26,283 nt of DNA from a virus. Shown here piece after piece: positions 218-20,470 of the stretch. A model generated the notes under the pieces. It made no database searches. It saw only the letters and a list, made by a program, of their open reading frames with translations, and was not told the DNA's origin. The stretch spans positions 1 to 26,283 of IMG/VR virus record IMGVR_UViG_3300046167_000124; one strand, written 5' to 3'. The position numbers and the translations under genes are program-made. The number at the start of each line of letters is the position of its first letter. Position 1 is the first letter of the stretch.

Positions 218-856
218 TTATTTGTGATTATTTAATTTTTCTAATACTCTATCCATAGTGCTTCTCGCTCTTCCTTTTGCTAAATGCACTCTTTCTTTTT
301 TCTCAACCTTTTCTGGGTTGTGATTAATTGGTTCAGCAGAAACTTCAACTTCATTTAATTCTACTTTAGCTGCTTCTACTTTTTCTTCTACTTTTTCTTC
401 TTTTGAATACACTTCTTCTTCTTTAGAATTTCTGTCTTGTTTATCTGATTTTAAATCAGCAATAGCATCTTCTAAGTTTTTAATTCTTTTTTCCATGCCT
501 TTCCAGTCTGCTACATCAGCTTCCTCATCCATTTCTTCTTCTTCTTTCATTTCTTCTTTTTCTTCTCCTGCTTCTTCCTTTTGTGGAACTTCATCGTCAA
601 CATCTTCTCTTACATCTCCAATGACTCCCTCTTCTTCAACTACTAATAAAGTGCCATCTTCAAATAAGTACTCACCAACTGGCATAGCTACTTTTTCGTC
701 ATCTGTCAAAATAAATACAGCTTTACCTTTTTCAAAAGATTCAGCTTCTATTCTAGTTCCGTTTTCAAGTTTTCTTTCTTCTAACTCTACTTTAACTTCT
801 GCTAGTTCCATTCCTAGAACTTGTTTTATTGATTCAACTATTTCTGATGCTTTCAT
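218..856 (-). CDS. Acidic scaffold-like protein
   Basis: A protein of 212 residues in three parts. Residues 1-80 form a compact domain with beta-rich wording (LFEDGTLLVVEEEG near 64-77). Residues 80-170 are extremely rich in Glu and Lys and predicted helical or disordered. The basic C-terminal tail ends near RARSTMDRVLEKLNNHK. An acidic helical protein between prohead protease and capsid genes is typical of capsid scaffolds, which are degraded by the protease during maturation. No catalytic motif is seen. It is preceded by a copy of the ACACTTT-N10-TGTACATATA element ending 23 bases before its ATG. The scaffold role is inferred from composition and position. An alternative is a capsid decoration or assembly factor. 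Confidence 0.6.
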   Translation of the reverse strand: MKASEIVESIKQVLGMELAEVKVELEERKLENGTRIEAESFEKGKAVFILTDDEKVAMPVGEYLFEDGTLLVVEEEGVIGDVREDVDDEVPQKEEAGEEKEEMKEEEEMDEEADVADWKGMEKRIKNLEDAIADLKSDKQDRNSKEEEVYSKEEKVEEKVEAAKVELNEVEVSAEPINHNPEKVEKKERVHLAKGRARSTMDRVLEKLNNHK

Positions 857-879: not shown

Positions 880-906
880 TATATGTACAACAAAATTGAA
901 AAGTGT
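880..906 (-). promoter_or_regulatory. Late-gene upstream element, copy C
   Basis: On the minus strand ACACTTT (906-900) is followed after exactly 10 bases by TGTACATATA (889-880), then ATAAGC. The same bipartite sequence with the same spacing occurs at 1698-1724 and 9196-9222. Here the ATG of the scaffold-like gene is 23 bases further on, a normal leader length, so a promoter reading is straightforward for this copy. The left half overlaps a 7-bp hairpin (899-916) just after the Cys-rich gene. Confidence 0.55.
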
Positions 907-917
907 TTCCACTTTTT

Positions 918-1067
918 TTAGCTTGCCTGAGTTTTACCTATGCCCTGTGCATGAAGTGAGCCATCACAACAATCCACACTATAAGTGTTGTCTTTACACA
1001 AACACCCTCTGCGACTGGCTTTTGGTGAATTGTGTGCTAGGTTTTTAAATTTCTTCTTTCTTATCAT
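918..1067 (-). CDS. Small Cys-rich protein, 49 aa
   Basis: An ATG at 1067-1065 inside the end of the protease gene, in another frame, opens a 49-residue reading frame. It starts MIRKKKFKNLAHN and contains SRRGCLCKDNTYSVDCCDGS, that is C-x-C and C-C pairs 8 residues apart, ending HAQGIGKTQAS. The basic start and four closely set cysteines suggest a small metal-binding or disulphide-free knuckle; no known family was assigned with certainty. The 23-base overlap with the protease suggests translational coupling. Its place between protease and scaffold genes suggests a head-assembly role, by inference only. I recall similar short peptides in flavobacterial phages, but could not search. Confidence 0.7.
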   Translation of the reverse strand: MIRKKKFKNLAHNSPKASRRGCLCKDNTYSVDCCDGSLHAQGIGKTQAS

Positions 1068-1695
1068 ATTGTTTGTTTTGATTATCACAACCTTTGCAAA
1101 TAATATCCTTTATTTTTGCTATTAATTCTTCAGAAAGCACTTCTTCAGATAATTCTTCCTCTATTTGTTCTTTAGGTCTGTTAGCTTGATCTGAGAAAAA
1201 TCCTTCTATAGAAAATCCTTTGACTTTGCCTGTCTTTACATAATCATTCCATATTTCGTCATTATTAACTTTCATCGACACCATCCAAGTACCTTTTGGC
1301 ACATCTAAACCATATTTTACTGATTTATCCATTTTAGGGTCATCTACTAACCAAGATTCAACAACTGTTAGGTTTTGTATAGCCATTTGATGCTCTAAAG
1401 TTGCTTTTGATTGATTGCCTCTTATTAAAAACATTTCAGATGCCTTTTTTACAGTATCTGTGGAGAAATAGACATAATAGCCTTCATCTTTCTCATTCTT
1501 TCTATAAATGGGCTTGTTAGGTATTAAAGCAGCACCCATAAGGATTCGTTTTTCCTTATCAACCTCTGCCATTTTGATTTCTTGGTTTTTAAGTGCAATA
1601 AAATCTGATTCTATTGCAGGAGATTCAACAACTGAAATAGCTTCTATTCCTGAATGTTCGTTTTCTTCGTCTAAAAATAATTCTATTATATCCAT
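1045..1695 (-). CDS. XkdF-like prohead serine protease
   Basis: 216 residues. The N-terminus (IIELFLDEENEHSGIEAISV, then VESPAIESDFIAL) is typical of XkdF-type putative phage serine proteases. The later block has LEHQM with His102 and the VKGFSIEGFF segment with Ser162, the likely catalytic His and Ser of this family, although I infer this from motif similarity. The family cleaves scaffold and capsid precursors in the prohead. Fit with context: the scaffold-like and capsid-like genes follow directly. The conserved residues begin at the first Met, which supports the start at 1695. That ATG lies only 2 bases after the TGTACATATA element, leaving almost no leader. The C-terminal tail is Glu/Lys-rich and ends KKEEI. 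Confidence 0.8.
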   Translation of the reverse strand: MDIIELFLDEENEHSGIEAISVVESPAIESDFIALKNQEIKMAEVDKEKRILMGAALIPNKPIYRKNEKDEGYYVYFSTDTVKKASEMFLIRGNQSKATLEHQMAIQNLTVVESWLVDDPKMDKSVKYGLDVPKGTWMVSMKVNNDEIWNDYVKTGKVKGFSIEGFFSDQANRPKEQIEEELSEEVLSEELIAKIKDIICKGCDNQNKQYDKKEEI

Positions 1696-1697
1696 AA

Positions 1698-1724
1698 TAT
1701 ATGTACAATAATTTTTGAAAGTGT
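1698..1724 (-). promoter_or_regulatory. Late-gene upstream element, copy B
   Basis: Minus-strand ACACTTT (1724-1718), 10 bases, then TGTACATATA (1707-1698), then TT and the protease ATG at 1695. The left half overlaps the stop codon of the tape measure gene. If the element is a promoter, transcription would start at or after the ATG, giving a leaderless or internal transcript. Alternatively it is a translational or processing signal. Confidence 0.5.
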
Positions 1725-3445
1725 TACCCTATACTTGCTCCTTCGACAATATTTCTGTCTAAACTCTGTGCAGTAGTTACATCATTAGCCACTACAAAAG
1801 CTTTGACTGGCTCTTGAGCTTGACTTCCTATTGCTCCTGCTAACTGATTTGTTTCTGATGCTCCTACTATATTAAATGCAGGAGGACTTGGTGCAACTGA
1901 TACAGCAGCAGATGAACCACCACCTAAACCACCACCAGATAATGCAGCAGGTGCAGCAGGTGTTTGAGTAGAAACTATATTTTTAACATTAGCAAGACCT
2001 CCTGCAATAATTCCTGCTGCTGCTATAGGGCCAAAAATACCTCCCTGTGCTAAAGCCTTATTAGCTCCTGCATAAGTATCAATTACTGCTTGAGTAACTG
2101 CAATAGCTTTCCCAAATCCACTACTTTGACCTACAAGATTAGCAATCCCTCCTAAAGCTCCTGATATAATGTTAAGCTTTTGTTCTTCTGTTAGTTTTGT
2201 TATTATTACATCTGTTTTAGCAGCATCAGCATTAATTTTAGATATTTGTTTCTGATAATCTTGTTGAGCTTTTAATAAAAGAGCATTTTTTCGTTCTTCA
2301 TTGTCAACTTCTTTATCTATTAGTGCAGTTTGTATGTCTAATTGATTTTGTGCTTCTAATTTGGCTAATTCAACATCATCTAATCCTATTTGTTTTAATT
2401 CTAAATCTAAATCTTTTTGTTCCTGTAATAAAGCATTATAATTTGTCTGTTGCTCAGACCTAAACCCTGTAACTGTAGCTTCAATAGCAGCTTGTTCATT
2501 TAAAGCCTCTGTATAAGCTACTTGTAGAGCTACATTATCTTTATTTAAATCTAAAGCTGCTTTTGCTGAATCAACTGCAACTTGAGCATTTTTCTTCATT
2601 GTCTTTTCTTGCTCATCTAATACTTCTGCTAATTTTTCATTAGCCTCAATTCTTACTTGTATACTGTTTGAGGTATCGTCTCTTAATTGTCTTTGTATTT
2701 CTGCTTCTCTATCGTATTTTTCTAGTAAACCCTGATTTTCTGCATTTAAAAGCTGTGCTGAATTAGCTAACTGTGTGTTAGCCTGTGCTGCCTGAAAAGT
2801 AGATTTTACATATTTAGTAACATTAGTAGTTAATTCTTTTTGTTCTTTAGAAGCATCAATTAAATCTGTTCCTAGTTGTGCAATTTCTCCTGCAAGCCTT
2901 TCAATTCCTTCAGTATCTTTTTTATCAAATAATGTTTTTGCTGCTAATTGTAATGTTTTAAATCCTATCTGTGCTTTTATAATAGTAGGCATTAATAAAG
3001 TTTTTATACTATTTCCTACTCTAGCTATAGCACCTTTAAAATTTTCAAAAGAAGTAAACGATTCTATCACTCCATTAGTGATGTCAGTAAATATTTTAGC
3101 AGTAGTTTGGAATATAGTATTGCCAAAATCTACTACTTTTTGATTCTCGCCTAATACTTCAGTAAAAGTTTCAAAAGCTTTTAATATTAATCCAAAACCG
3201 ATAGCTTTAAAGGCAAGTCCCACACCACTAAACCCTTTTTTAAGTTTATTAACGCCTTTTGTTAACCCACTTAGTCCTTTCCTTGATTTTTTAGCTTGAG
3301 TGTCTAAAGATTTAAAGCTTTTTTTACTTTCTTTTTGATTGTCTACTAAGCTTTCATTTATAAGCTGTAAACTTTTTACAACATCTTCTAAACTAGCTTC
3401 TGCATTTTTAGTGTTTACCTTTAATTCTATTGGAATACTTTTCAT
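1724..3445 (-). CDS. Tail tape measure protein
   Basis: 573 residues. The N-terminal 70 residues are Lys-rich helix. Hydrophobic segments lie near residues 74-95 (VGLAFKAIGFGLILKAF) and near 465-485 (Gly/Ala/Ile-rich). Between them is a long Gln/Glu/Ala-rich coiled-coil region (about 180-410), and the C-terminal 70 residues are Gly/Ser/Ala/Pro-rich. This is the usual build of a short siphovirus tape measure, which sets tail length and occupies the tail tube. At the textbook ratio of about 0.15 nm per residue the tail would be near 85 nm, an estimate only. The start overlaps the previous small gene as TAATG, so translation is coupled. The gene is unusual in preceding the head genes. Confidence 0.85.
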   Translation of the reverse strand: MKSIPIELKVNTKNAEASLEDVVKSLQLINESLVDNQKESKKSFKSLDTQAKKSRKGLSGLTKGVNKLKKGFSGVGLAFKAIGFGLILKAFETFTEVLGENQKVVDFGNTIFQTTAKIFTDITNGVIESFTSFENFKGAIARVGNSIKTLLMPTIIKAQIGFKTLQLAAKTLFDKKDTEGIERLAGEIAQLGTDLIDASKEQKELTTNVTKYVKSTFQAAQANTQLANSAQLLNAENQGLLEKYDREAEIQRQLRDDTSNSIQVRIEANEKLAEVLDEQEKTMKKNAQVAVDSAKAALDLNKDNVALQVAYTEALNEQAAIEATVTGFRSEQQTNYNALLQEQKDLDLELKQIGLDDVELAKLEAQNQLDIQTALIDKEVDNEERKNALLLKAQQDYQKQISKINADAAKTDVIITKLTEEQKLNIISGALGGIANLVGQSSGFGKAIAVTQAVIDTYAGANKALAQGGIFGPIAAAGIIAGGLANVKNIVSTQTPAAPAALSGGGLGGGSSAAVSVAPSPPAFNIVGASETNQLAGAIGSQAQEPVKAFVVANDVTTAQSLDRNIVEGASIG

Positions 3446-3576
3446 TATTTAAAATATTTAATATGATTATAAACTTCTTTAAAGGTTTCAGGAATTTTGT
3501 TTTTACCTAATGCAATTTGTGAAAACTCACTTTTACATTTGGTTATTTTTATTAACTCTAGTATTTGTCCTATCAT
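3445..3576 (-). CDS. Small coupled protein before the tape measure, 43 aa
   Basis: ATG at 3576-3574 overlaps the stop of the upstream tail gene as ATGA, and its own stop overlaps the tape measure start as TAATG. The 43-residue product starts MIGQILELIKITKCKSEFSQ and ends HIKYFK; it is basic, probably helical, with one Cys and no membrane segment. The perfect two-sided coupling argues that it is a real gene. By position (between a large tail protein and the tape measure) it may help tail assembly, but I recognise no family. Confidence 0.65.
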   Translation of the reverse strand: MIGQILELIKITKCKSEFSQIALGKNKIPETFKEVYNHIKYFK

Positions 3577-5669
3577 GATAATTCGTTTAGTAATTCTAAG
3601 CTGCTTTCCCCTGTCAGCATATTGGTTTTAACTGTGTTTATTTTATAACTAATGTCATTGATAATAAACTTGTCATTTAAATTGTAGTTAAGTAAAATGC
3701 TTAAAGGCAAGTAAGCTTTAACCTTAGTCATTCTTCTTTTTATGTTAAATACATCAGAGATGTAAGAAGAGTAGTAATTTTGAAATAGGCTTTGGTTGTT
3801 TGTAGTTCCTGTATACTCATCTACCTCACTACCAAAATTAATAGTCTGTGAGGAGTTTAAATTAACATTAGAAGGTCTGTTGTAAGTTGTTAAACCTGCT
3901 GCTTCATTAGAAGTGACTCCATCTTTAAATGAAAGTTTAGAATCTGCACTACTAATAGTCTGGTTAATATTATAAAATATTAAAGGTTTTGTCAAATCAG
4001 TTTCTTGGTCTGCATTAACACTCCATCCCCATTGTATTTCACTTTGATTGTTAGTAAGAGTTGATGAACTGTTTTGGTCAGACAACCTTTCATAAACCAT
4101 TTTAGCGAAGGGGAGTTCTATAGTGTATTTAGTACCAACATCAATAGAAGTATCTCTTGAGGGAGGACTAAGCAAATCTCCAAACACTTGGTTTTGTATT
4201 CTGTTAAAATTTATAGCTAAAAAAGAATCTGGCTCTTGAAATTTAAACTGAATGTCATTATAAGGCAAAGCCATATTAATCTCACTAGTATTCATTTCAA
4301 CATGAGCAGTAATATCAAAAGAATTGCTAGTCGCATAAAAACTATCTAATGTTCTTACCTCAATAATGTTCTGGTCATTAACAAAAGCAGTTAAATTAAA
4401 AGTCTGAAATAAGCCTGTAAGTAGGTCTATAATTTTAATGTCAGGCACATTTTGATTGATATAAACAAAGCCTAGTGTATCGTTAGTCCCTCCATTTACT
4501 ACATAGTTGTTTGTTCCTCCACCAAAGTTTAAAATATCATTAGCTGTTAGTTCTAAAGTTGGAGTAAAGGATAAGGCTGAGGTGCTTTCTACAACCCATT
4601 GTATTTCATAATTAGCAGCAGTATTTCCATCTAGTGTAAAGGTCAAAGGATTACTCCCTGTTACATTTGTTATTTCAGCAAGTCTAGTGTTCGATACATT
4701 GTCAATAGCATAAGCTGTGTAGACTATTGAGTTGTCAGTCGGAACTATGCTCAATGTAGCAAAATAAACTATTTTGTCTGCTGTGTTTATATTGACAGTC
4801 CAAGTAGTGTTTCCTAAGTTAAAAGAATAATTGTCGCTTCCTGAAAGTTGCCAGTTACCAATTACTTTAGTTAAAACTTGTTGGCCGTCTGTATTTGTTC
4901 CTATTCTTCCTTTATTTCTAGCAAGCCATAAATATAAACTGGCAAAAGGCTCAGAGTTATTAAAAAAATCTGATGAAAATACAATGTCACTCGGAAATCC
5001 ATTAGCTACTGTATATCTAGCTTCAATAGCATCTATAATTTCTTGTAGTCTTATAGCAGGTTTTAAATTAGTATATTCAACTCCATGATTTAATGAACCC
5101 TGTCCGTTACTCTGATAATGAACATTATAATCTTCTTCATTTGTTGCATCTGAATTAAAAAAGTATCTTCCTGCTTCAGCTTGTATTAAAGGATAGACAA
5201 TAGCTCCACTACTGAGATAGGTGTCTGATTGTAAAGCATTTTTTACTATGAGCTTTGAATAAGTATGGTCATAAGCAGATAGGTTTAAAACGTCTAGTTT
5301 ATCTTCAGCTAATAAAGTTTTTAGGTTTACTGTATTTCCAAAAAATGTTACATTGTATGAGCTAGCCTGATTGTTTTTCATTTTAACTCCATTGAGCTGC
5401 AATACTCCTGTCTTAAATTCTAAAAAGTTTAATTCTAGCTTACTACTAATTTTAGTTCTGGCATCAAAGCCTGCATCAATATTGAAGTTGTAAAAGTGTT
5501 TAAATATCTTATTGTTATTTTTTGAGGCAGGTAAATTAAAAGACTTAGTAAAATCAGTAAATATTTTACCTACATCTCTTACGTTTTGTATAGATTGAGT
5601 GATAGTGACTGATTCGTCTTTAAACATATCAGCTCTTAGCCCATTAATATAAATTTGTAGTGCTAGCAT
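3573..5669 (-). CDS. Large tail protein, possible baseplate or tail-tip component
   Basis: 698 residues. The N-terminal segment (MLALQIYINGLRADMFKDES, then DVGKIFTDFTKSFNLPASKN) belongs to a type I associate with conserved large tail proteins of Bacteroidetes phages. The body is beta-rich, with many Asn/Thr/Ser stretches and repeated aromatic residues, and there is no signal peptide or membrane segment. The C-terminus (NYNLNDKFIINDISYKINTV) resembles a hub or tip domain. It lies between another virion protein and the tape measure, consistent with the distal tail or tail tip. The start overlaps the corrected stop of the upstream gene as TAATG. A specific enzymatic role is not visible, and the tail-tip assignment is inference. 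Confidence 0.6.
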   Translation of the reverse strand: MLALQIYINGLRADMFKDESVTITQSIQNVRDVGKIFTDFTKSFNLPASKNNNKIFKHFYNFNIDAGFDARTKISSKLELNFLEFKTGVLQLNGVKMKNNQASSYNVTFFGNTVNLKTLLAEDKLDVLNLSAYDHTYSKLIVKNALQSDTYLSSGAIVYPLIQAEAGRYFFNSDATNEEDYNVHYQSNGQGSLNHGVEYTNLKPAIRLQEIIDAIEARYTVANGFPSDIVFSSDFFNNSEPFASLYLWLARNKGRIGTNTDGQQVLTKVIGNWQLSGSDNYSFNLGNTTWTVNINTADKIVYFATLSIVPTDNSIVYTAYAIDNVSNTRLAEITNVTGSNPLTFTLDGNTAANYEIQWVVESTSALSFTPTLELTANDILNFGGGTNNYVVNGGTNDTLGFVYINQNVPDIKIIDLLTGLFQTFNLTAFVNDQNIIEVRTLDSFYATSNSFDITAHVEMNTSEINMALPYNDIQFKFQEPDSFLAINFNRIQNQVFGDLLSPPSRDTSIDVGTKYTIELPFAKMVYERLSDQNSSSTLTNNQSEIQWGWSVNADQETDLTKPLIFYNINQTISSADSKLSFKDGVTSNEAAGLTTYNRPSNVNLNSSQTINFGSEVDEYTGTTNNQSLFQNYYSSYISDVFNIKRRMTKVKAYLPLSILLNYNLNDKFIINDISYKINTVKTNMLTGESSLELLNELS

Positions 5670-7232
5670 TATTTAATATTGTTTATAGTGCTAAAGGCAT
5701 AATCAAAGCTCATTGTATAATTTATAAGTCCTTCATTAACTCCTTTTTTAAATGTTAAGCTTTTAGTTTTTATGTTTATTGGCAAGACATTGTTTCCGTC
5801 ATCTACAAATATTTGTTTACTAAGCATTATTTCTTCAATGACTTCATTGAAGCTCTCGTTAATAAATCCCTGTATTCATTTCAATCGATTCACTACCATT
5901 GACTCCATAAGTTGCTATACTGTGTTTAGAAATATCATAGCTAGGAGAAGAGGTAAAGTCCATTATATTTCTGTTGTAAGTGCTTCCTTTAACACTTAAG
6001 CTTTTTTGTGACCTTTTAAAAAATGGCATGATCTGTAAAGCTCCAAACTTGTTATAAAAGATTACTTGTAGTTGCTCATACTTAGGCTCACATACAGCCT
6101 CTAGGGTTAAAGTAAAACTTTGCTCATAGCCTGTTTTAGTAGAAACTACTGTAATAGTATCTCCTGTTTGTAACGTCAGAGTCGGAGTTACTCTTATGTA
6201 AACTATCTTTTCTGTTGAATCGGTAGAATCAGGAACTACAATAGGGGTTAAAATAGAACCCCAGTAATTTTGGTATAAGTTCCAGAACTCATCAGTCCTT
6301 TCCCATTTGATGTTTGCTCCTCCTCCACTAATAAAAGTGATAGTAGGCTCTGCTTCTGCAAATACTGGAAAGACAATGTCTGTACCCTGTTTAAAATATA
6401 TAGTTGTATTGCTTTGTAATAAAGCAGGAGTGTAATCAGGTCTAGCTACAATGCTATAATTGTCAGGAGTTGAAACCATAATATCAGCAGCTAATGCCAA
6501 TGATGTATTACTTTCTATAGCACTAATTGTAGTACTACCTCCCTCACTTAAATTGTTTACAGTATCTCCTAGACTTACTGTGTCTAAAAAGTTTTGTGTT
6601 GAGTCTTGTAATTTAAAAGCTACTGTTACTCCATCTGTTGTTCCTGTGACTACTGTGTTTATAGGATTAGTAGCTGTTCTAGGGTTTACACCTTCTTCAA
6701 AATATCCAAACCCATCAAAAGCTAAGTAAGGAGTGGCATCTTCTGCTGCTGCTGTTTGTCTTATGTTATAAGTTTCTCCACTTGTCATAATATCGGAACT
6801 TAGGCTAAGAGTAGTATTGCTATCTATTGCAGAAATAGTTGCTGTTGTTCCGTCTGTTGTATTGTTAACTGTATCACCAATTTGAACTGAACTTGTAAAG
6901 TTTTGAGTGCTGTCTACTAGCTTGTTTGCTGTTGTTCCAGTTGTTGTTCCAGAATCTTTAGTTATAACAGTAGAGGTTTTAACCCACACTCCGTCTGTTG
7001 AAAAGTTGCCATATTCTGTCTCTAAATAATCTTTAACAAGTGAGCTTATTTCAAAGGCTATGTAGTTGTTTCCTGATATGACTGTTTTGGTTAATGTGTA
7101 TTGTGATGGAGATGGAGAAGCTGTATAAGTACCTGAGTAAATATACAATGTCATTGTTGCTGATTCTATGCTTCCCTGTGAGGGAGTTATTTTTATAAAG
7201 TATGGACTTCTAGCATTTATTATTGCACTCAT
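5669..7232 (-). CDS. Virion or tail protein with duplicated beta module, interrupted by a +1 frame change
   Basis: From ATG at 7232 the frame runs 457 residues to TAA at 5861-5859, ending EMNTGIY. Skipping one base at 5870-5867 (GGGA) gives MNTG followed by FINESFNEVIEEIMLSKQIF, which stays open for 65 residues to TAA at 5671-5669. This overlaps the next ATG as TAATG. The corrected product is about 520 residues. The added tail (SLTFKKGVNEGLINYTMSFD) is coherent protein and I recall similar C-termini in related phage proteins. The body is beta-rich and holds two related modules of about 60 residues (near residues 100-157 and 197-261). It is probably a major tail or tail-associated protein; it follows the tail terminator and neck genes. 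Either an assembly indel or a true lesion explains the break. Confidence 0.6.
6447..6935 (-). repeat. Two diverged copies of a protein module inside one gene
   Basis: Copy 1 (about 6935-6759) contains LVDSTQNFTSSVQIGDTVNN and ISAIDSNTTLSLSSDIM. Copy 2 (about 6644-6447) contains LQDSTQNFLDTVSLGDTVNN and ISAIESNTSLALAADIM. They are separated by a unique segment (YLAFDGFGYFEEGVNP). The pattern suggests insertion of a mobile beta-sandwich-type module, duplicated afterwards; the DNA has already diverged. Confidence 0.75.
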
Positions 7233-7235
7233 GTT

Positions 7236-7727
7236 TTAAATATTTTCTGTTATGTCTTTTACTAATGATTCTGCTAATTCTTCAGGCAGTCTTTCAAAGG
7301 CTTTTTCAAAGGGTTTAGTAAAAAACATACTTGGTCTTATACCTTTGTAATAAATGCTTTTAGCTAAAGCAAAGTCTAATGATTTACGTTTTTCAAACTG
7401 TCCTCCTTTACCTCTTGGAGCTATTCCTTTAATTACTCCCCATTTATCAAATGCTTTAGGAGGAGGCATTTTATTTGTGTATTTAAAAGGTGTGTTAAAT
7501 TTTCTTTTTATACCACTTACCCCTTTATCTTGATACTCTCCATAGTCTTCCATTTCAAAAGACAGACTGAAACCCTCAGCAGTTTTCTCTAGGTTATATC
7601 CAATAGAATTATAAAGTGTTTTATTTACATTCTTTTTTTGTTTAGTAAGATTGCTTCTTGATTGTTGGACTACATACTTTCCAAACCTATTCAACTCTCT
7701 CTGTATCTCTTTTAATTCCATTAGCAA
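7236..7727 (-). CDS. HK97 gp10-like neck or tail-completion protein
   Basis: 163 residues, basic, with an N-terminal helix (ELNRFGKYVVQQSRSNLTKQ), a central EMEDYGEYQDKGVSG, then PFKYTNKMPPPKAFDKWGV, and a C-terminal helix after MFFTKPFEKAF. The Y-G-x-Y-x-D-x-G element and the P-P-P-K segment resemble HK97 gp10-type head-tail joining proteins. Its order next to the tail terminator gene fits such a neck role. It overlaps the preceding gene by 7 bases. The product starts MLMEL, and a second Met two residues on is equally possible. The function is inferred from motif wording and position. Confidence 0.55.
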   Translation of the reverse strand: MLMELKEIQRELNRFGKYVVQQSRSNLTKQKKNVNKTLYNSIGYNLEKTAEGFSLSFEMEDYGEYQDKGVSGIKRKFNTPFKYTNKMPPPKAFDKWGVIKGIAPRGKGGQFEKRKSLDFALAKSIYYKGIRPSMFFTKPFEKAFERLPEELAESLVKDITENI

Positions 7728-8176
7728 ATTGTCATATTTGTTGGAACTACTACGTCAAAAGTTACTGCCCATCCTGTTAAACTATTCTCAAACCTTTCGT
7801 TAAAAGGTTCACAGCTTGCTGTTCCCTCTACCTGATACAAGTCGCTAAATAAATCTCCTCTCATTAGCTTACTAACAATTCTAGCTGCTATATTAAGCTG
7901 TGTGTTTAGAATGTCTTGCTCGTTAGAGTTTCCTAGAAATGCAGAAGCACTTTCTGTTTTAGGATTGTCCACAATATCCATGCACATTATAGTCACATTA
8001 AATGTTGTTGTTGGAGCAGAGATAGTAGCTTGATTGACCATAATGTGTGATAATGGAAATATGGTTTGTTTAGCTAAGTCAATGTCATAAATGTTTCCAT
8101 AGCTTACAGTATTAACAAAAGGTTCTGCTTCTAAAGCTGTTTTAAGTGTGTCAATTATATTATAATAAGTTGTCAT
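7721..8176 (-). CDS. Tail terminator-like protein
   Basis: 151 residues, alpha/beta, with N-terminal helix TLKTALEAEPFVNTV, then KQTIFPLSHIMVNQA, VTIMCMDIVD and a C-terminal RFENSLTGWAVTFDVVVP. This matches my memory of conserved tail-terminator or tail-completion proteins of flavobacterial phages, which cap the tail tube before it joins the head. Its size and its place beside the gp10-like gene agree. It overlaps the genes on both sides by 4 to 7 bases (ATGA with the upstream gene), so it is part of the coupled tail operon. No catalytic residues are expected or seen. Confidence 0.55.
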   Translation of the reverse strand: MTTYYNIIDTLKTALEAEPFVNTVSYGNIYDIDLAKQTIFPLSHIMVNQATISAPTTTFNVTIMCMDIVDNPKTESASAFLGNSNEQDILNTQLNIAARIVSKLMRGDLFSDLYQVEGTASCEPFNERFENSLTGWAVTFDVVVPTNMTIC

Positions 8177-8460
8177 ATCGTTTTAATAAATATTGGAGTG
8201 AATGAGTTTATATCACTATTGTTTGCTTCTTTTATGTAATCGTCTAGCCATTCTAAAGCTGCATCAAATTCAAAAACTTCCTGTGTGACTTTTGCTTTTA
8301 TTAAACAATCCAGACATTTCCAATAATCGTATATAGCTCTTTTAGGATTAGTAGTAGATATGCCGATCATAGCATCTTCAAAGCCTTCAGCTAGAACAAT
8401 GCTTTCATCATAAGGAATTAGTCCTCTTTCATAAAGCTCCTCTACTAAAAACTCTTTCAT
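8173..8460 (-). CDS. Conserved-looking hypothetical protein, 95 aa
   Basis: A 95-residue acidic, mostly helical protein starting MKEFLVEELYERGLIPYDES with a central AIYDYWKCLDCLIK and FDAALEWLDDYIKEA. It has two nearby Cys but no complete metal site. Its ATG overlaps the stop of the frameshift-dependent tail chaperone frame as ATGA. Ribosomes that finish that -1 frame are therefore delivered to this start, which supports real use of the -1 frame. The function is unknown; a tail-assembly role is inferred from position. Confidence 0.6.
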   Translation of the reverse strand: MKEFLVEELYERGLIPYDESIVLAEGFEDAMIGISTTNPKRAIYDYWKCLDCLIKAKVTQEVFEFDAALEWLDDYIKEANNSDINSFTPIFIKTI

Positions 8461-8711
8461 ATCTTACTCTTTATCATTCTTCTTTCAAGTTCTATTTTCT
8501 CTTTTTCAAAAGTCAAAAACATTAAACATTGATGGACTGGTAACTTGGTAACTTCATCAATTTGGGTAACGTCTGAGTTACTAAGTCTATAAATGCTTGA
8601 ATACCAATTCCACTTTCTTCCAAAGTTTGCTTTTGCTGAGAGGTCAGATTCTCCACTTCCTGTTTGAAATAACTCGGAATATGATTCATTAACTCTTTGC
8701 TTAAACTCCAA
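8457..8711 (-). CDS. Tail assembly chaperone, -1 frame extension (gpGT-like)
   Basis: A -1 frame relative to the upstream chaperone gene, open from within a T9 run to TGA at 8459-8457. No ATG or other convincing start precedes its conserved part: the frame begins at TTG inside the T-run. It encodes EFKQRVNESYSELFQ, then FGRKWNWYSSIYRLSNSDVT and LPVHQCLMFLTFEKEKIELE. This W-x-W-Y ... LPVHxCLxFLxFEKEK block is familiar as the C-terminal part of tail assembly chaperones in Bacteroidetes phages. A -1 slip on T TTT TTT at 8717-8711 would join residues 1-161 of the upstream protein to these 84 residues (about 245 in total). That matches lambda gpG/gpGT logic. Independent initiation cannot be fully excluded. 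Confidence 0.7.
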   Translation of the reverse strand: MEFKQRVNESYSELFQTGSGESDLSAKANFGRKWNWYSSIYRLSNSDVTQIDEVTKLPVHQCLMFLTFEKEKIELERRMIKSKI

Positions 8712-9193
8712 AAAAAAACTAATGAACCAAGTACAATATCTAATGGCATTTTCTGCATATCGTATTTGTCATATGTCTCATAGTCCTCAATTAAATACTT
8801 GTTATTTTGTTTAAGTGTTATAGGTCTAAATAATACACCCATAGCTTTGTGCATAGTTTCCCAGTCTGTCAATGTGGAATCTAGGTCTACATATTCTCCA
8901 AAGGTCATATCGTCTAGCTTAGGTATAAATCCAAATTCTAACTCACCTCTATTAAAAGATGTAATAAACTTTGGTTTTTGTTCAAACAGTTTGTTAAGGT
9001 GTTTTGTTATTTTGTTTATGGAGGTGTATTTAATATTAAGCACATTCTTTAATTCAATGTTACAGAATATCTCTACCATTTTCTGTTGCAGAAACAAGCT
9101 ATCTTCATTGTCATTAGAAATCTTTAGGAACTTTTGATATTGCTCTAATGTTATTTCTGATAGTGTTTCAGGTACTAGGATTTTAACTTTCAT
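8522..9193 (-). CDS. Tail assembly chaperone, zero-frame product (gpG-like)
   Basis: 223 residues, mostly helical, starting MKVKILVPETLSEITLEQYQ, with FNRGELEFGFIPKLDDMTFG near 80-99. By position (before the neck and tail genes) and the overlapping -1 frame, it is the probable gpG-type chaperone that coats the tape measure during tail assembly. Residues 160-161 (FF) are encoded by TTT TTT in a run of nine T. The zero-frame C-terminus beyond it (FFWSLSKELMNHI, ESGIGIQAFIDLV) also reads as true protein. So 190 nt appear to be coding in two frames. An ACACTTT-N10-TGTACATATA element ends 2 bases before its ATG. Confidence 0.65.
   Translation of the reverse strand: MKVKILVPETLSEITLEQYQKFLKISNDNEDSLFLQQKMVEIFCNIELKNVLNIKYTSINKITKHLNKLFEQKPKFITSFNRGELEFGFIPKLDDMTFGEYVDLDSTLTDWETMHKAMGVLFRPITLKQNNKYLIEDYETYDKYDMQKMPLDIVLGSLVFFWSLSKELMNHIPSYFKQEVENLTSQQKQTLEESGIGIQAFIDLVTQTLPKLMKLPSYQSINV
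8711..8717 (-). promoter_or_regulatory. Candidate -1 ribosomal frameshift site T TTT TTT
   Basis: Minus-strand codons GTT TTT TTT TGG (8719-8708) contain the canonical X XXY YYZ heptamer T TTT TTT in the zero frame. After a -1 slip the next codon is TTG at 8711-8709, exactly where the downstream frame opens. I did not identify a convincing stimulatory pseudoknot by eye. A homopolymer of nine T is also a place where sequencing errors occur, but both downstream frames look like real protein. Confidence 0.6.
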
Positions 9194-9195
9194 AC

Positions 9196-9222
9196 TATAT
9201 GTACAATAAAATCACAAAGTGT
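9196..9222 (-). promoter_or_regulatory. Late-gene upstream element, copy A
   Basis: Minus-strand ACACTTT (9222-9216), 10 bases, then TGTACATATA (9205-9196), then GT and ATG of the tail chaperone at 9193. It lies in the short gap after the large terminase stop and marks the head of the tail gene block. Same spacing and core as copies at 1698-1724 and 880-906. Confidence 0.5.
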
Positions 9223-9234
9223 ACTCCACCCTAT

Positions 9235-10443
9235 TTAATAAATATGATATTCTCCTCTGTTTGGATTTTCAAGTTGATAGCTTACAGAATATCTTAAAGC
9301 ATCTATTAAATGGTTATGCTTATCTATTGGAGTTTGTGATTTTTTTTCAAGCCAACAATAATTATTTAATTCTTTTATAAGCTCATTAGAATTTTGGTCT
9401 ATAACTAAATCATAATCTTGGAGTAAACTTATTCCAAAAACTATACTTCCCTGTCCTTTAATTGTTGGAACAACATTATTAAATCTTTTTAATTCGCTTA
9501 TAAGTCTAGGTTCGGCACTATCACCAACTATCAAACTTCTTCCTGCAAATTTAGTGTTAAGCTCTGCAATTTGTGAGGTTGTTAAATGTGTTTTATAAAA
9601 ACATTGTTTTACATATATAATTTTATTAGTTGAATCTATACTAGTTTGTACTAATGTTGAGGGGTCGTTACTAAATCCATAATCCTGACCAAATACAGAT
9701 TTACTTATTTCTTTAAAATCACCAATTTTCCAGTTAGTAAATATTACACCCTCAGCTTTCTCAAGCCATGCTCCATTAACTATGTGTTCAAAGTTTTTAG
9801 GTCTCCTAATCTTCATCTGATCTATTTGTTTAATATAGCTAGCTGAAAGGTTTTCTATATTATCTAAATAGGTAGTATGTATGTAGGTTGTATCTCCTTT
9901 AGTTGTATTTGCTCCTGCTTGCACTCCTCTACCCTCAAACCACCTTTGATAAATAAAATGTTCTTTAGTAGTAGGATTTAGCATTAATATTATTCTATTA
10001 TGTTTTCCTTTTTGTCTGACTGATAAATCTATCTTATCAAATATTCCCTCGTCAGTTAATTCCTCTGCTTCATCCATTATCCAAGTCGTAACCCCCTGTA
10101 AAGACTTTAGGTTGGCTGTTTGGTCTCCAGATGATGTTTTGATACCTCTAAATAATATCTTGCTTCCTGTGAGCTTATTTATAATCTCATCTTTTGTAAT
10201 ATGAAAATATTCTTGATAGCCTAGTATTTCAATCTTCTCTTTAAATTCTGGTATAATTGAAATGTGTGCTGACCTTAAAGTGTATCTAGTAAATAATATT
10301 ACATGACCACGTTCAACAGTTAACCAGACTAGTATTGTATTTATTGAAAATGATTTGCCAGAACCTCTTCCTCCAGTAACAATATAATACCTACTATCTA
10401 CTTCTTTAAATATGCTCCACTTTTTATTTAAAGCTAATTTCAC
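9235..10443 (-). CDS. terL: Terminase large subunit
   Basis: 402 residues, the normal length for a PBSX/Terminase_3-type packaging motor. The ATPase domain has Walker A GGRGSGKS at 24-31 and Walker B WIMDEAEE at 121-128. The C-terminal nuclease domain has the expected acidic residues: Asp254 in FGQDYGFSND, Asp308 in LIVGDSAEP and Asp381 in HLIDALRYS. The enzyme cuts concatemeric phage DNA and pumps it into the prohead through the portal. It overlaps the small terminase gene by 20 bases. The gene appears complete, with no missing catalytic residue. Confidence 0.95.
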   Translation of the reverse strand: MKLALNKKWSIFKEVDSRYYIVTGGRGSGKSFSINTILVWLTVERGHVILFTRYTLRSAHISIIPEFKEKIEILGYQEYFHITKDEIINKLTGSKILFRGIKTSSGDQTANLKSLQGVTTWIMDEAEELTDEGIFDKIDLSVRQKGKHNRIILMLNPTTKEHFIYQRWFEGRGVQAGANTTKGDTTYIHTTYLDNIENLSASYIKQIDQMKIRRPKNFEHIVNGAWLEKAEGVIFTNWKIGDFKEISKSVFGQDYGFSNDPSTLVQTSIDSTNKIIYVKQCFYKTHLTTSQIAELNTKFAGRSLIVGDSAEPRLISELKRFNNVVPTIKGQGSIVFGISLLQDYDLVIDQNSNELIKELNNYCWLEKKSQTPIDKHNHLIDALRYSVSYQLENPNRGEYHIY

Positions 10444-12434: not shown

Positions 12435-12844
12435 CTATTTTTTATATTCCAGATATAATTTTTTCATTACGTTAACCATTTCTCTTACACATGAACCACA
12501 TGAGCTGACTTGCCTTCTTGATGCTAGCACCCTATTGTGTATAGCTACCATTTTTGTTTGCTCCTCGTGTGTTAGTGTTGACTTTCTGCTTTTATAAAAA
12601 ACATCGAGCCACTTGTACTCCTCATCATTTAAACATTCTGTTGACCTGTATGGAAACAATCTTATTTAGTAATGCTTTCCTTTCATCACATCCACAGTCA
12701 ATTCCTGTTACTTCACTGACTTTCTCCACTACTTTTTTTATTCCTGTTTTCTTAGTGAAATTTTTCTATGCTATCTCCAAGACCTTTAGATTTTGGAGCA
12801 GCTTTTTTTCTTGTTGCCTTTTTAGCTTTAGCCTGTTTTGCCAT
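12435..12844 (-). CDS. Conserved phage protein (about 135 aa) broken by two single-base shifts
   Basis: Three reading frames join into one coherent protein. Frame 1 starts at ATG 12844 (MAKQAKAKKATRKKAAPKSK, GLGDSIEK) and stops after two more codons at 12752. Dropping one T at 12758-12760 enters frame 2 (12759-12661): FTKKTGIKKVVEKVSEVTGI, DCGCDERKALLNK. Dropping one base near 12660 enters frame 3 (12659-12435): LFPYRSTECLNDEEYKW and later SSCGSCVREM. Joined, this matches a protein type I remember from Bacteroidetes phages, with a Lys/Ala-rich N-terminus, a DCGCD motif, LFPYR and a CGSC pair. The last segment has no ATG start of its own. The function is unknown; the Cys motifs suggest metal binding. 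The gene overlaps the sigma factor stop. Confidence 0.65.
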
Positions 12845-13370
12845 AATAATATTCTTTTGCTACTTCTTTTTTAATTGTTAGTTTACACCTCTTTAGTGTT
12901 TTGAATACAGCCTTACTGCTTATTGCAGTAGCTGTAGATATTTTTCTAATACTTGGTATGTGGTAGACATATAAGTTTAACATCTTTTTATCATACCAGT
13001 ACATATTACTAATAGTCTTTTCTATTTTGTTAAAGACTACTTCCATTTGTGGTTTGCTAGGTGTTTCTTCTGGTTGGTCTATGTTAGGAAAGTGATTATT
13101 AATACTTACTGTTAGGATTTTCTTTTTCTTGTAGTCATTAATTATTAAGCTCTTTAATGTTCTAAAGAAATACTTTTTATTTATTTTTCCGTCAAACTCA
13201 TAATATTTGACAGGATCAAATGAAGAATGTAAAAGAATTTTTAAATAAGCATCTTGTACAAAATCTTCAGCATTTTTTTTCTGTGTAAAGTTTAAAGCAT
13301 TTTTAATCACATATCTAACCCACTCCACATGGAACTTAGATATGTCTATTATTACTTGATCTTTACTCAT
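12828..13370 (-). CDS. Phage-encoded ECF-like RNA polymerase sigma factor
   Basis: 180 residues, the size of an ECF sigma factor. Region 2 spans about 18-82, with AEDFVQDAYLKI at 34-45 (core-binding helix) and FFRTLKSLIINDYKKKK (DNA melting and -10 recognition). Region 4 spans about 108-170 and ends in a helix-turn-helix, SIRKISTATAISSKAVFKTL, KRCKLTIKKEV. It would direct host core polymerase to phage promoters. It sits at the end of the early operon just before terminase and late genes, the place for a late-gene activator. A repeated element upstream of late genes (copies A-C) is a plausible target, but that link is inference. No anti-sigma gene is seen beside it. It overlaps its neighbours on both sides. 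Confidence 0.75.
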   Translation of the reverse strand: MSKDQVIIDISKFHVEWVRYVIKNALNFTQKKNAEDFVQDAYLKILLHSSFDPVKYYEFDGKINKKYFFRTLKSLIINDYKKKKILTVSINNHFPNIDQPEETPSKPQMEVVFNKIEKTISNMYWYDKKMLNLYVYHIPSIRKISTATAISSKAVFKTLKRCKLTIKKEVAKEYYYGKTG

Positions 13371-18267: not shown

Positions 18268-18404
18268 TACTGTTTATTATGTATTATTATAATTATTACA
18301 CTTACAAATATATAAAAAACAGTACAATAAAAAAATAAAATATACAATTAAAATGAAAAAACCTTAAAAAACAGTACAAATAACAACAACCAACCTAACA
18401 AAAA
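18268..18404. promoter_or_regulatory. Divergent control region between repressor and early operon
   Basis: A 137-base A+T-rich gap between genes reading outward. On the minus strand TATATTTG (18312-18305) matches the Bacteroidetes -7 consensus TAnnTTTG and would give about a 30-base leader to the early operon; no -33 TTTG at the usual distance was found. The repressor-side leader contains CAACAACCAACCTAAC and an A-run before ATG 18405. Repeats with the core AAACAGTA are listed separately. Confidence 0.5.
18314..18379 (+). repeat. Candidate repressor operators: two direct copies of AAAAAACAGTACAA
   Basis: The 14-mer AAAAAACAGTACAA occurs at 18314-18327 and again at 18366-18379, 52 bases apart. 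A third, inverted AAACAGTA core is at 18275-18268 beside the early-operon start. The first copy lies directly upstream of the TATATTTG box. Position and repetition suggest binding sites of the adjacent XRE repressor. Confidence 0.55.
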
Positions 18405-19130: not shown

Positions 19131-19283
19131 ATGAACTTTGAAGATTTTACAGAAGCAATTCACCACACTAAACATTTATCTCAAGAGGAAAAAGAAATTC
19201 TTTATAACAGATGGAGAAAAGAATATTTAAAAAAATTAAAAAATAAATACTCTTTTTTAAAAAATAAAAAAAGTAAAACTTAA
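19131..19283 (+). CDS. Small basic protein downstream of the repressor, 50 aa
   Basis: ATG at 19131, stop at 19281-19283. The product starts MNFEDFTEAIHHTKHLSQEE and ends in a very Lys-rich tail (FLKNKKSKT). It is helical, acidic at the front and basic at the end. It lies 57 bases after the repressor gene on the same strand, and its stop overlaps the stop of the convergent integrase gene by 2 bases. Coherent amphipathic composition suggests a real gene, possibly a co-factor of the repressor, but no family is recognised. Confidence 0.55.
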   Translation: MNFEDFTEAIHHTKHLSQEEKEILYNRWRKEYLKKLKNKYSFLKNKKSKT

Positions 19284-20470
19284 CTCCAAAGTTTATTACT
19301 TGTCTGAATTAAAGTATTTAAATTAAACTTTTTATATTTTAATAAAGTCTTTGCATCTTTTATGCCTGCAATTTGCATTAATTGGTGGTCTGGCATACCT
19401 CTTTCACTCATCAAAGTTATAAATGTACGTCTAGCTGTATGACTACCTATAAGTTTCCATTTAGGAAAAACTTCTTCTTTCTTGTTTTTACCCATGTATG
19501 AAACTTTTTTTATGCTATCATTGATCTTTAGTTCTTTACAAATCTCTTGTATTTTTAAATTAAATTTTTGACTAGATATTTTAGGCAACTTCCACTCGTA
19601 TTTATCTAATAATTTTTTTAATTTACTATGTAGAGGAATAAAAGAAGTAATTTTAGTTTTCTTAGCTTTTTTCACTATAGCTCCCTCTCTTACATCTGCT
19701 TTTTCAAACATAGAATAATCAGAAAACCTTTGACCTGTATATGCTCCGATTAGAAATAAATCTCTAGCTCTTTCATTAGATGCACTTAACTTTGCATCTT
19801 CTAATAATTTAAGCTCTAATTCTGTTAAATGCACATCATTAGTCTCATACTTAGCTATCTTTATATTATTATAGTCAGTCAATACTTTATAGCCTTTTTT
19901 ACTGCACCATGAGATCATTGTTTTAAAAATACTCATATACCTATGCAAAGTATTGTCATTCAAATTATATTCTTTTCTCATAAATGTTATAAATTCAGCA
20001 TAAAAATTGTCATCTAAATCATTTAATTTATATTGTTTTTTATTTAGCTTTTCGAAGTAAAGAGTTTTTGTAAGCATGGCTCGATACTTTATAAGCATTT
20101 TTACACCTACCTCCTGCATTTCTTCTCTTTCTTTTATAAATGCTTTCCAGAAATCTTTTAAATAAATTAATTGTTGTTTTTTTATGCTGAAATGCTCTTT
20201 TAAATGTCCTATAGTAAGCTCTTTACCATGATTATCTATAGCTTCATGTAGTTTGTCATTTATTCTGTTAAGCTCATCTGTAATACGTCTTAGCTTATAA
20301 CTATCTCCACCTCTTTTTAATTTAGGCAATCTGTTTTCTTTTGACCAGTCTTTTGGATTAATTTTTAATTGTGTACTAAGTTTAAATTTCTTATTTTCCT
20401 TTTTTACATAGTATTGTATTATTATTAATGAATCAGTATAAGAATTAGGTTCTTTTAAATAAAAAAACAT
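19280..20470 (-). CDS. int: Tyrosine-type integrase
   Basis: 396 residues, Bacteroidetes-type phage integrase. It has an N-terminal arm-binding region (1-95), a SAM-like core-binding domain (about 100-205) and a catalytic domain. Catalytic residues: Arg248 in TGQRFSD, Lys near 273, His344 and Arg347 in GSHTARRTF, and Tyr379 in LLKYKKF. The position usually held by His/Trp is Ile370 (QIAGIKDAKT instead of a GH-type motif). It recombines attP with attB in the host tRNA-Pro gene. The start at 20470 touches a pair of TAGTGGTAA arm repeats, so binding there could block its own expression. It is convergent with the repressor-side genes. Confidence 0.92.
   Translation of the reverse strand: MFFYLKEPNSYTDSLIIIQYYVKKENKKFKLSTQLKINPKDWSKENRLPKLKRGGDSYKLRRITDELNRINDKLHEAIDNHGKELTIGHLKEHFSIKKQQLIYLKDFWKAFIKEREEMQEVGVKMLIKYRAMLTKTLYFEKLNKKQYKLNDLDDNFYAEFITFMRKEYNLNDNTLHRYMSIFKTMISWCSKKGYKVLTDYNNIKIAKYETNDVHLTELELKLLEDAKLSASNERARDLFLIGAYTGQRFSDYSMFEKADVREGAIVKKAKKTKITSFIPLHSKLKKLLDKYEWKLPKISSQKFNLKIQEICKELKINDSIKKVSYMGKNKKEEVFPKWKLIGSHTARRTFITLMSERGMPDHQLMQIAGIKDAKTLLKYKKFNLNTLIQTSNKLWS

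Follow-up and report, generated by a model that had tools for sequence, protein, structure and literature searches.

Two-block elements before late genes of a marine phage as probable promoters for its own ECF-type sigma factor

Phages phiEco32 and 7-11 encode a sigma factor of their own and carry cognate late promoters (PMC4331800), and phage sigma factors that alter sporulation have been described in Bacillota (PMC9429907). For phages of Bacteroidota, a literature search with most subscription journals outside its coverage found no description of late promoters, and both the late switches and the promoters of these phages appear little described. Here we examine a 26,283-base stretch of a marine bacterial virus (IMG/VR record IMGVR_UViG_3300046167_000124; this whole stretch is called the window), on which nearly all genes lie on the minus strand. 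It contains three exact copies of a two-block element, ACACTTT-N10-TGTACATATA, before late genes, together with a gene for a sigma factor of the extracytoplasmic function (ECF) type. We regard the three elements as late promoters dependent on this sigma factor and used by host RNA polymerase, and put the probability of this reading at roughly 0.87.

All three copies are on the minus strand, at 9222-9196, 1724-1698 and 906-880, precisely as the first-pass annotation had reported them, with half-sites 10 bases apart and TTGTACATATA in each. The exact element was absent from 100 dinucleotide shuffles of the window (0 expected), and when up to three mismatches were allowed (0.11 matches expected), the same three copies were recovered and no more. 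Exact TGTACATATA occurs in these three places of the window only, and the element is the sole 7+gap+10 spaced word with three copies on the coding strand. Unseeded counts of 5+7 spaced words do not single it out, three copies being too few at that size.

The first promoter (9196-9222, minus strand) is composed of a -35-like ACACTTT (9222-9216), ten bases, and a -10-like TGTACATATA (9205-9196). It ends 2 bases before the ATG at 9193, as had been noted in the first-pass annotation, and the A of this ATG is the predicted +1 of a leaderless transcript. The first gene of this late unit, chap (8522-9193, minus strand, 223 amino acids), matches phrog_32199 (unknown function, E 1.8e-13) and encodes a probable tail assembly chaperone, judging by its location between terminase and tape measure. 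After the terminase, two open reading frames that are read in different frames, 8522-9193 and 8457-8711, share part of their DNA (8457-9193, minus strand), as is the case with tail assembly chaperones produced through programmed frameshifting. The second promoter (1698-1724, minus strand; ACACTTT at 1724-1718, N10, TGTACATATA at 1707-1698) has the same distance to the ATG at 1695, whose A is again the predicted start of a leaderless transcript. Its unit begins with prot (1045-1695, minus strand, 216 amino acids), encoding an XkdF-like prohead protease (Pfam Peptidase_S78_2, E 7.1e-16). The third (880-906, minus strand; ACACTTT at 906-900, N10, TGTACATATA at 889-880) stops 23 bases short of the ATG at 856 and, with a predicted +1 at A877, would produce a leader of about 21 nucleotides. 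The first gene of the third unit, scaf (218-856, minus strand, 212 amino acids), is an open reading frame with a weak phrog_24921 match, and its position suggests a scaffold-like acidic protein. The upstream block of the third copy is also one arm of a perfect hairpin, AAAGTG-GAAA-CACTTT (895-920), which is kept in several phages of the window lineage and is perhaps a terminator, or an antisense terminator, overlapping the -35 block.

Next, we examined related loci. About 100 of them, denoted by L-numbers, were gathered from IMG/VR by sigma and terminase searches, and most carry a sigma homologue. The two-block element recurs upstream of the chap, prot and scaf orthologues of these relatives and before late genes of the cultured Nonlabens phages P12024L/S, and a pattern scan found the exact element in further IMG/VR contigs. 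Enrichment before late genes of relatives with the same sigma factor had been proposed as a check on the element, and it is seen: in 40 records, ACASTTT-N10-YGTA has 41 matches on the gene strand against 2 for the reversed pattern. In most near-complete genomes, lineage matrices detect two to three strong sense copies, located at the same genes, and the best antisense scores are well below these; the matrices were built partly from the scanned genomes, so that high scores are partly built in and the antisense comparison and the fixed-pattern scan serve as the independent checks. In P12024L, AAAAC-N17-CGTTAAT is the top over-represented 5+7 spaced word, and the six copies of AAC-N16/17-CGTTAAT (0.34 expected) all precede late or terminase genes, with none in the replication module. 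One defining feature of the phiEco32 type, a phage sigma factor accompanied by a few conserved promoters before structural genes, is found here as well.

The three window copies are not equally widespread. The first is conserved in position and form upstream of its gene in relatives. The second is kept within the window lineage (L001, L004, L006, L009, L031, L033, L039), and no counterpart before the protease gene was found in distant lineages. The third is kept before the scaffold-like gene in the window lineage, and distant lineages show their own lineage-specific form there. A weaker fourth copy proposed in the first-pass annotation, TAACTTT-N10-TGTATAAAA (11981-11955), is present in the sequence but did not stand: it scores 5.1 of 25.1 on the lineage matrix, which is the background level of the relatives, and no similar element precedes the same methyltransferase in L022, L028/L033, L031 or L032. 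Extra matches to ACAGTTTATACAGTTAATGTA in G004, G019 and G023 (similar in G014) were set aside as probably coding; L116, the one examined, lacks a -10-like tail. In some phages of the L035 lineage (L144:11746, contig of L051; L040), the promoter is retained before another short reading frame and not before the usual gene.

Spelling of the element differs between sigma lineages, and copies within one phage, even kilobases apart, are spelled alike. The form of the window lineage is (A/T)ACA(C/G)TTT-N10-(C/T)GTACATATA, with YGTACATATA as the downstream block; L031, L033 and L039 have GTATTATATAT at every copy (listed spelling YGTATTATATAT). TATAAC is paired with CGTTTATA in the large L072-like group, with TACATTA or GCATTA (TRCATTA) in the L061 group and with ACATTTATA in the L035 group, and P12024L and its relatives have AAAAC-N16/17-CGTTAATA. 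The L072 and P12024L lineages have AAC-N16/17-CGT blocks, and the window lineage has (A/T)AC and (T/C)GT with 15 bases between them. These spellings bear on a function other than that of a promoter. TGTACA in the window copies is palindromic and copies stand at module borders, as might be the case with an operator bound by a late regulator of the phage other than a sigma factor, be it an activator or a repressor, or with a recombination or boundary sequence between modules. Yet the palindrome is lost in the variants CGTACATATA and GTATTATATAT, which have been retained, and neither block is an inverted repeat of the other. The element also has a fixed, gene-strand-specific position with respect to the ATG, and distant lineages have the two-block promoter spelling AAC-N16-CGT. 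We hold an operator or boundary function to be very improbable.

Comparison of 26 loci revealed correlations of promoter similarity with the identities of the sigma factor (0.75) and of the downstream protein, chap (0.77), and a far weaker one with that of the adjacent upstream terminase (0.24). In a partial Mantel test, the sigma correlation given both terL and chap is 0.24 (permutation p = 0.0005), and that of terminase is approximately zero. In L005, L012, L013 and others the terminase has been swapped wholesale, being only about 30% identical to that of the window (9235-10443), while their sigma factors are 94-99% identical and their promoters nearly identical. The co-variation rules out hitch-hiking of the element with terminase, and the one spelling common to distant copies in a phage adds to the case for the sigma factor.

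ECF sigma factors consist of sigma domains 2 and 4 only, connected by a flexible linker, and are about 160-200 amino acids long. The putative reader of the three promoters, encoded at 12828-13370 (minus strand), has 180 amino acids and matches phrog_1740, a sigma factor family (E 3.6e-7). The first-pass annotation had called it ECF-like, and its predicted fold agrees with this. The AlphaFold2 (AF2) model (predicted local distance difference test, pLDDT, 78) has the two-domain ECF layout, with helices at 3-87 and 107-174 and a low-confidence linker at 87-105, and its top fold matches in the PDB are ECF sigma factors. The C-terminal domain superposes on sigma-E region 4 bound to -35 DNA with a root-mean-square deviation of 1.2 over 64 aligned columns (TM-score 0.85 by the target's length), and matches in a viral structure library are phage proteins annotated as ECF-type sigma factors. 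Among the sigma homologues, 11 of 51 match Sigma70_r2 and 1 of 51 matches r4_2 at E 0.01. The sigma profile gave nothing useful against PDB chain sequences, a tblastn search of cultured phages with the window sigma as query gave no match (the link to P12024L was found by profile), and a peptide-pattern scan found no relatives in bacterial genomes. No recognised anti-sigma neighbour lies beside the phage sigma gene.

In the L072 lineage, a full element is located within the sigma gene itself, at codons 61-72, and is followed by an in-frame ATGATG; in L074 it lies at 833-868 inside the sigma gene (652-1161), and the same is true of L072, L084, L086 and others. Since codons 61-72 have the lowest synonymous entropy of the sigma gene (0.08 against a mean of 0.49, 32 sequences), the DNA itself seems to be under constraint there. 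The internal copy of L074 is upstream of the terminase genes, and a P12024L copy precedes gp37, where the terminase operon begins. The sigma-internal element is likely to be a promoter of the terminase unit, and production of a C-terminal sigma fragment from it is possible.

At the gene following terminase, a hairpin with a T-run is present just upstream of the element in 42 of 65 distinct upstream regions and marks an operon border; this terminator is absent from the window itself. The distance from the start of the -10 triplet to the ATG is 11-14 bases in most copies for which a start could be assigned, 15 in two and 24-36 in most others; some instances, including the copies inside the sigma gene, have no assignable start. 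At ECF promoters, transcription starts about 11-14 bases from the CGT box. Because the distances are about the same, the A of the ATG would be the +1, and the distribution favours leaderless mRNA among the options which the first-pass annotation had offered for the 2-base distance. From this geometry, leaderless initiation is likely at two of the three window copies, and many late mRNAs are probably leaderless, which is unusual for flavobacteria. Leaderless mRNAs account for 5.5% of the mRNAs mapped in Flavobacterium psychrophilum (PMC9723704), and 87% of the leaders of F. johnsoniae are longer than 10 nucleotides (PMC6847099).

With 2 bases between two of the copies and an ATG, the element could also be a signal for translation or mRNA processing, such as a Kozak-like context or a ribosome-binding leader, and no promoter at all, the more so as Bacteroidota mRNAs are without Shine-Dalgarno sites and have A-rich contexts instead (PMC6847099). 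Such a signal does not account for an upstream block about 30 bases from the ATG with a fixed spacing to the downstream block, for the complete two-block form in copies 24-36 bases from the ATG, for the terminators preceding the element, for the constrained copy within the sigma gene, or for a form that varies with the sigma lineage. We consider it very improbable.

Several observations weigh against late promoters read by the phage sigma factor. The elements of the window lineage differ from the textbook ECF spelling, having TGT for CGT and 15, not 16, bases after AAC/TAC. Global TM-scores of the sigma model against ECF sigma factors are low, the linker not being fixed and the domain arrangement differing, and for the single protein sequence support for the sigma family is weak, its Sigma70_r2 match being under the Pfam cut-off (17.1 of 24 bits). 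Identities of sigma and chap are correlated at 0.89 and chap explains promoter similarity equally well, so the co-variation alone is not proof of the sigma factor. In the window, L061 (B) and L035 (C) lineages, no strong copy was found in the interval that begins 300 bases upstream of the sigma gene and ends 1500 bases past it, and a terminase or sigma promoter of this type was rejected for them; as no copy was found before either gene, terminase and sigma genes of the window lineage must be transcribed by other means. Autoregulation is absent from some ECF groups (PMC3817407) and hence not strictly defining. Finally, most L072-like and L061-like relatives have, at one gene, a host -7 box resembling TAnnTTTG that overlaps the beginning of the element. 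The promoter might belong to a host sigma factor, primary or an infection-induced ECF, with the phage sigma doing something else; flavobacterial hosts have several ECF sigma factors, and one mapped promoter class of F. psychrophilum has a CGT box at -10 (PMC9723704). However, TAnnTTTG has not been preserved by the window lineage, where TTTG, TTTT, TTTC and TTTA all follow ACAC, and the same is true of the scaffold and sigma-internal copies in the L072 lineage. The spelling follows the phage sigma lineage, and nearly all element-bearing relatives carry the phage sigma where the contig covers the region. Recognition by a host sigma factor appears improbable.

Promoters for the phage sigma factor, as the first-pass annotation had proposed, are thus supported by the late-gene enrichment in sigma-carrying relatives and by the variation of form with sigma lineage. 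The sigma factor would be expressed from an early or middle operon. Its region 4 would contact the upstream ACACTTT and its region 2 the downstream TGTACATATA, and host RNA polymerase with this sigma would switch on the tail, protease and scaffold/head units, which in many relatives would begin just past the terminator ending the terminase unit. Initiation would fall on the ATG or a few bases from it at two copies, leaving only the third with a leader. Tentatively, the same might hold for a broad group of Bacteroidota phages, in which much late expression would be driven by ECF-type promoters that run straight into the start codon, with many leaderless late mRNAs that, such mRNAs being rare in the hosts, could favour phage over host translation, and with the sigma-internal promoter of one lineage expressing the terminase unit or a sigma-4-only fragment.

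The window phage is probably temperate, because it has an open reading frame resembling, as read by eye, a tyrosine integrase (19280-20470) and encodes a divergent helix-turn-helix repressor. Its terminase has its closest cultured-phage relatives in Nonlabens phages P12024L/S (55%), and a terminase search found 62% on one contig of a Bacteroidetes metagenome-assembled genome; on these grounds, a host from Bacteroidota is most likely. In the region separating the repressor from the first early gene (18280-18400) there are two copies of TTGTACTGTTTTTTA and a related ACAGTAATG, adjoined by a host-type -7 box, TATATTTG; these are likely repressor operators and an early promoter.

Matched sets of sigma factors and promoters from at least five diverged lineages should be useful for reading ECF specificity, and the system predicts sharp 5' ends in the cultured P12024L/S. 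If the leaderless prediction is true, it offers a testable case of phage late genes using leaderless initiation in a phylum without Shine-Dalgarno sites. Leaderless mRNAs exist in mycobacteria (PMC4633059) and are said to be frequent in phages (PMC5312081). Common to these and to our case is a start codon at or next to the transcription start, predicted here from the arrangement of element and ATG; in contrast to them, leaderless mRNAs would here be tied to one phage sigma factor and to late genes, at a host level of about 5% (PMC9723704).

Host ECF sigma factors with AAC/CGT promoters, such as those of flavobacterial motif SM6 (PMC9723704), resemble the phage system in the two-domain sigma of about 180 amino acids and in the AAC-N16/17-CGT of the L072 and P12024L lineages. 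They differ in that the phage sigma has no recognised anti-sigma neighbour or self-directed upstream promoter, and in the (A/T)ACACTTT and (T/C)GTACATATA of the window lineage. In phiEco32 and 7-11, as proposed here, a phage sigma factor redirects host RNA polymerase to a few conserved promoters of structural genes, and those of 7-11 were found from sequence alone (PMC4331800). Their late promoters carry an extra TATA element. Both are lytic phages of enterobacteria, in which a separate anti-sigma factor is present and the sigma gene is preceded by middle promoters (PMC4331800). Those described here are Bacteroidota phages, their elements are of the two-block ECF type, many of these elements abut the ATG, and neither a middle class nor a copy preceding the sigma gene was seen. 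The working principle is common to phiEco32, 7-11 and the present phages; the promoters, the host group and the geometry at the start codon are different.

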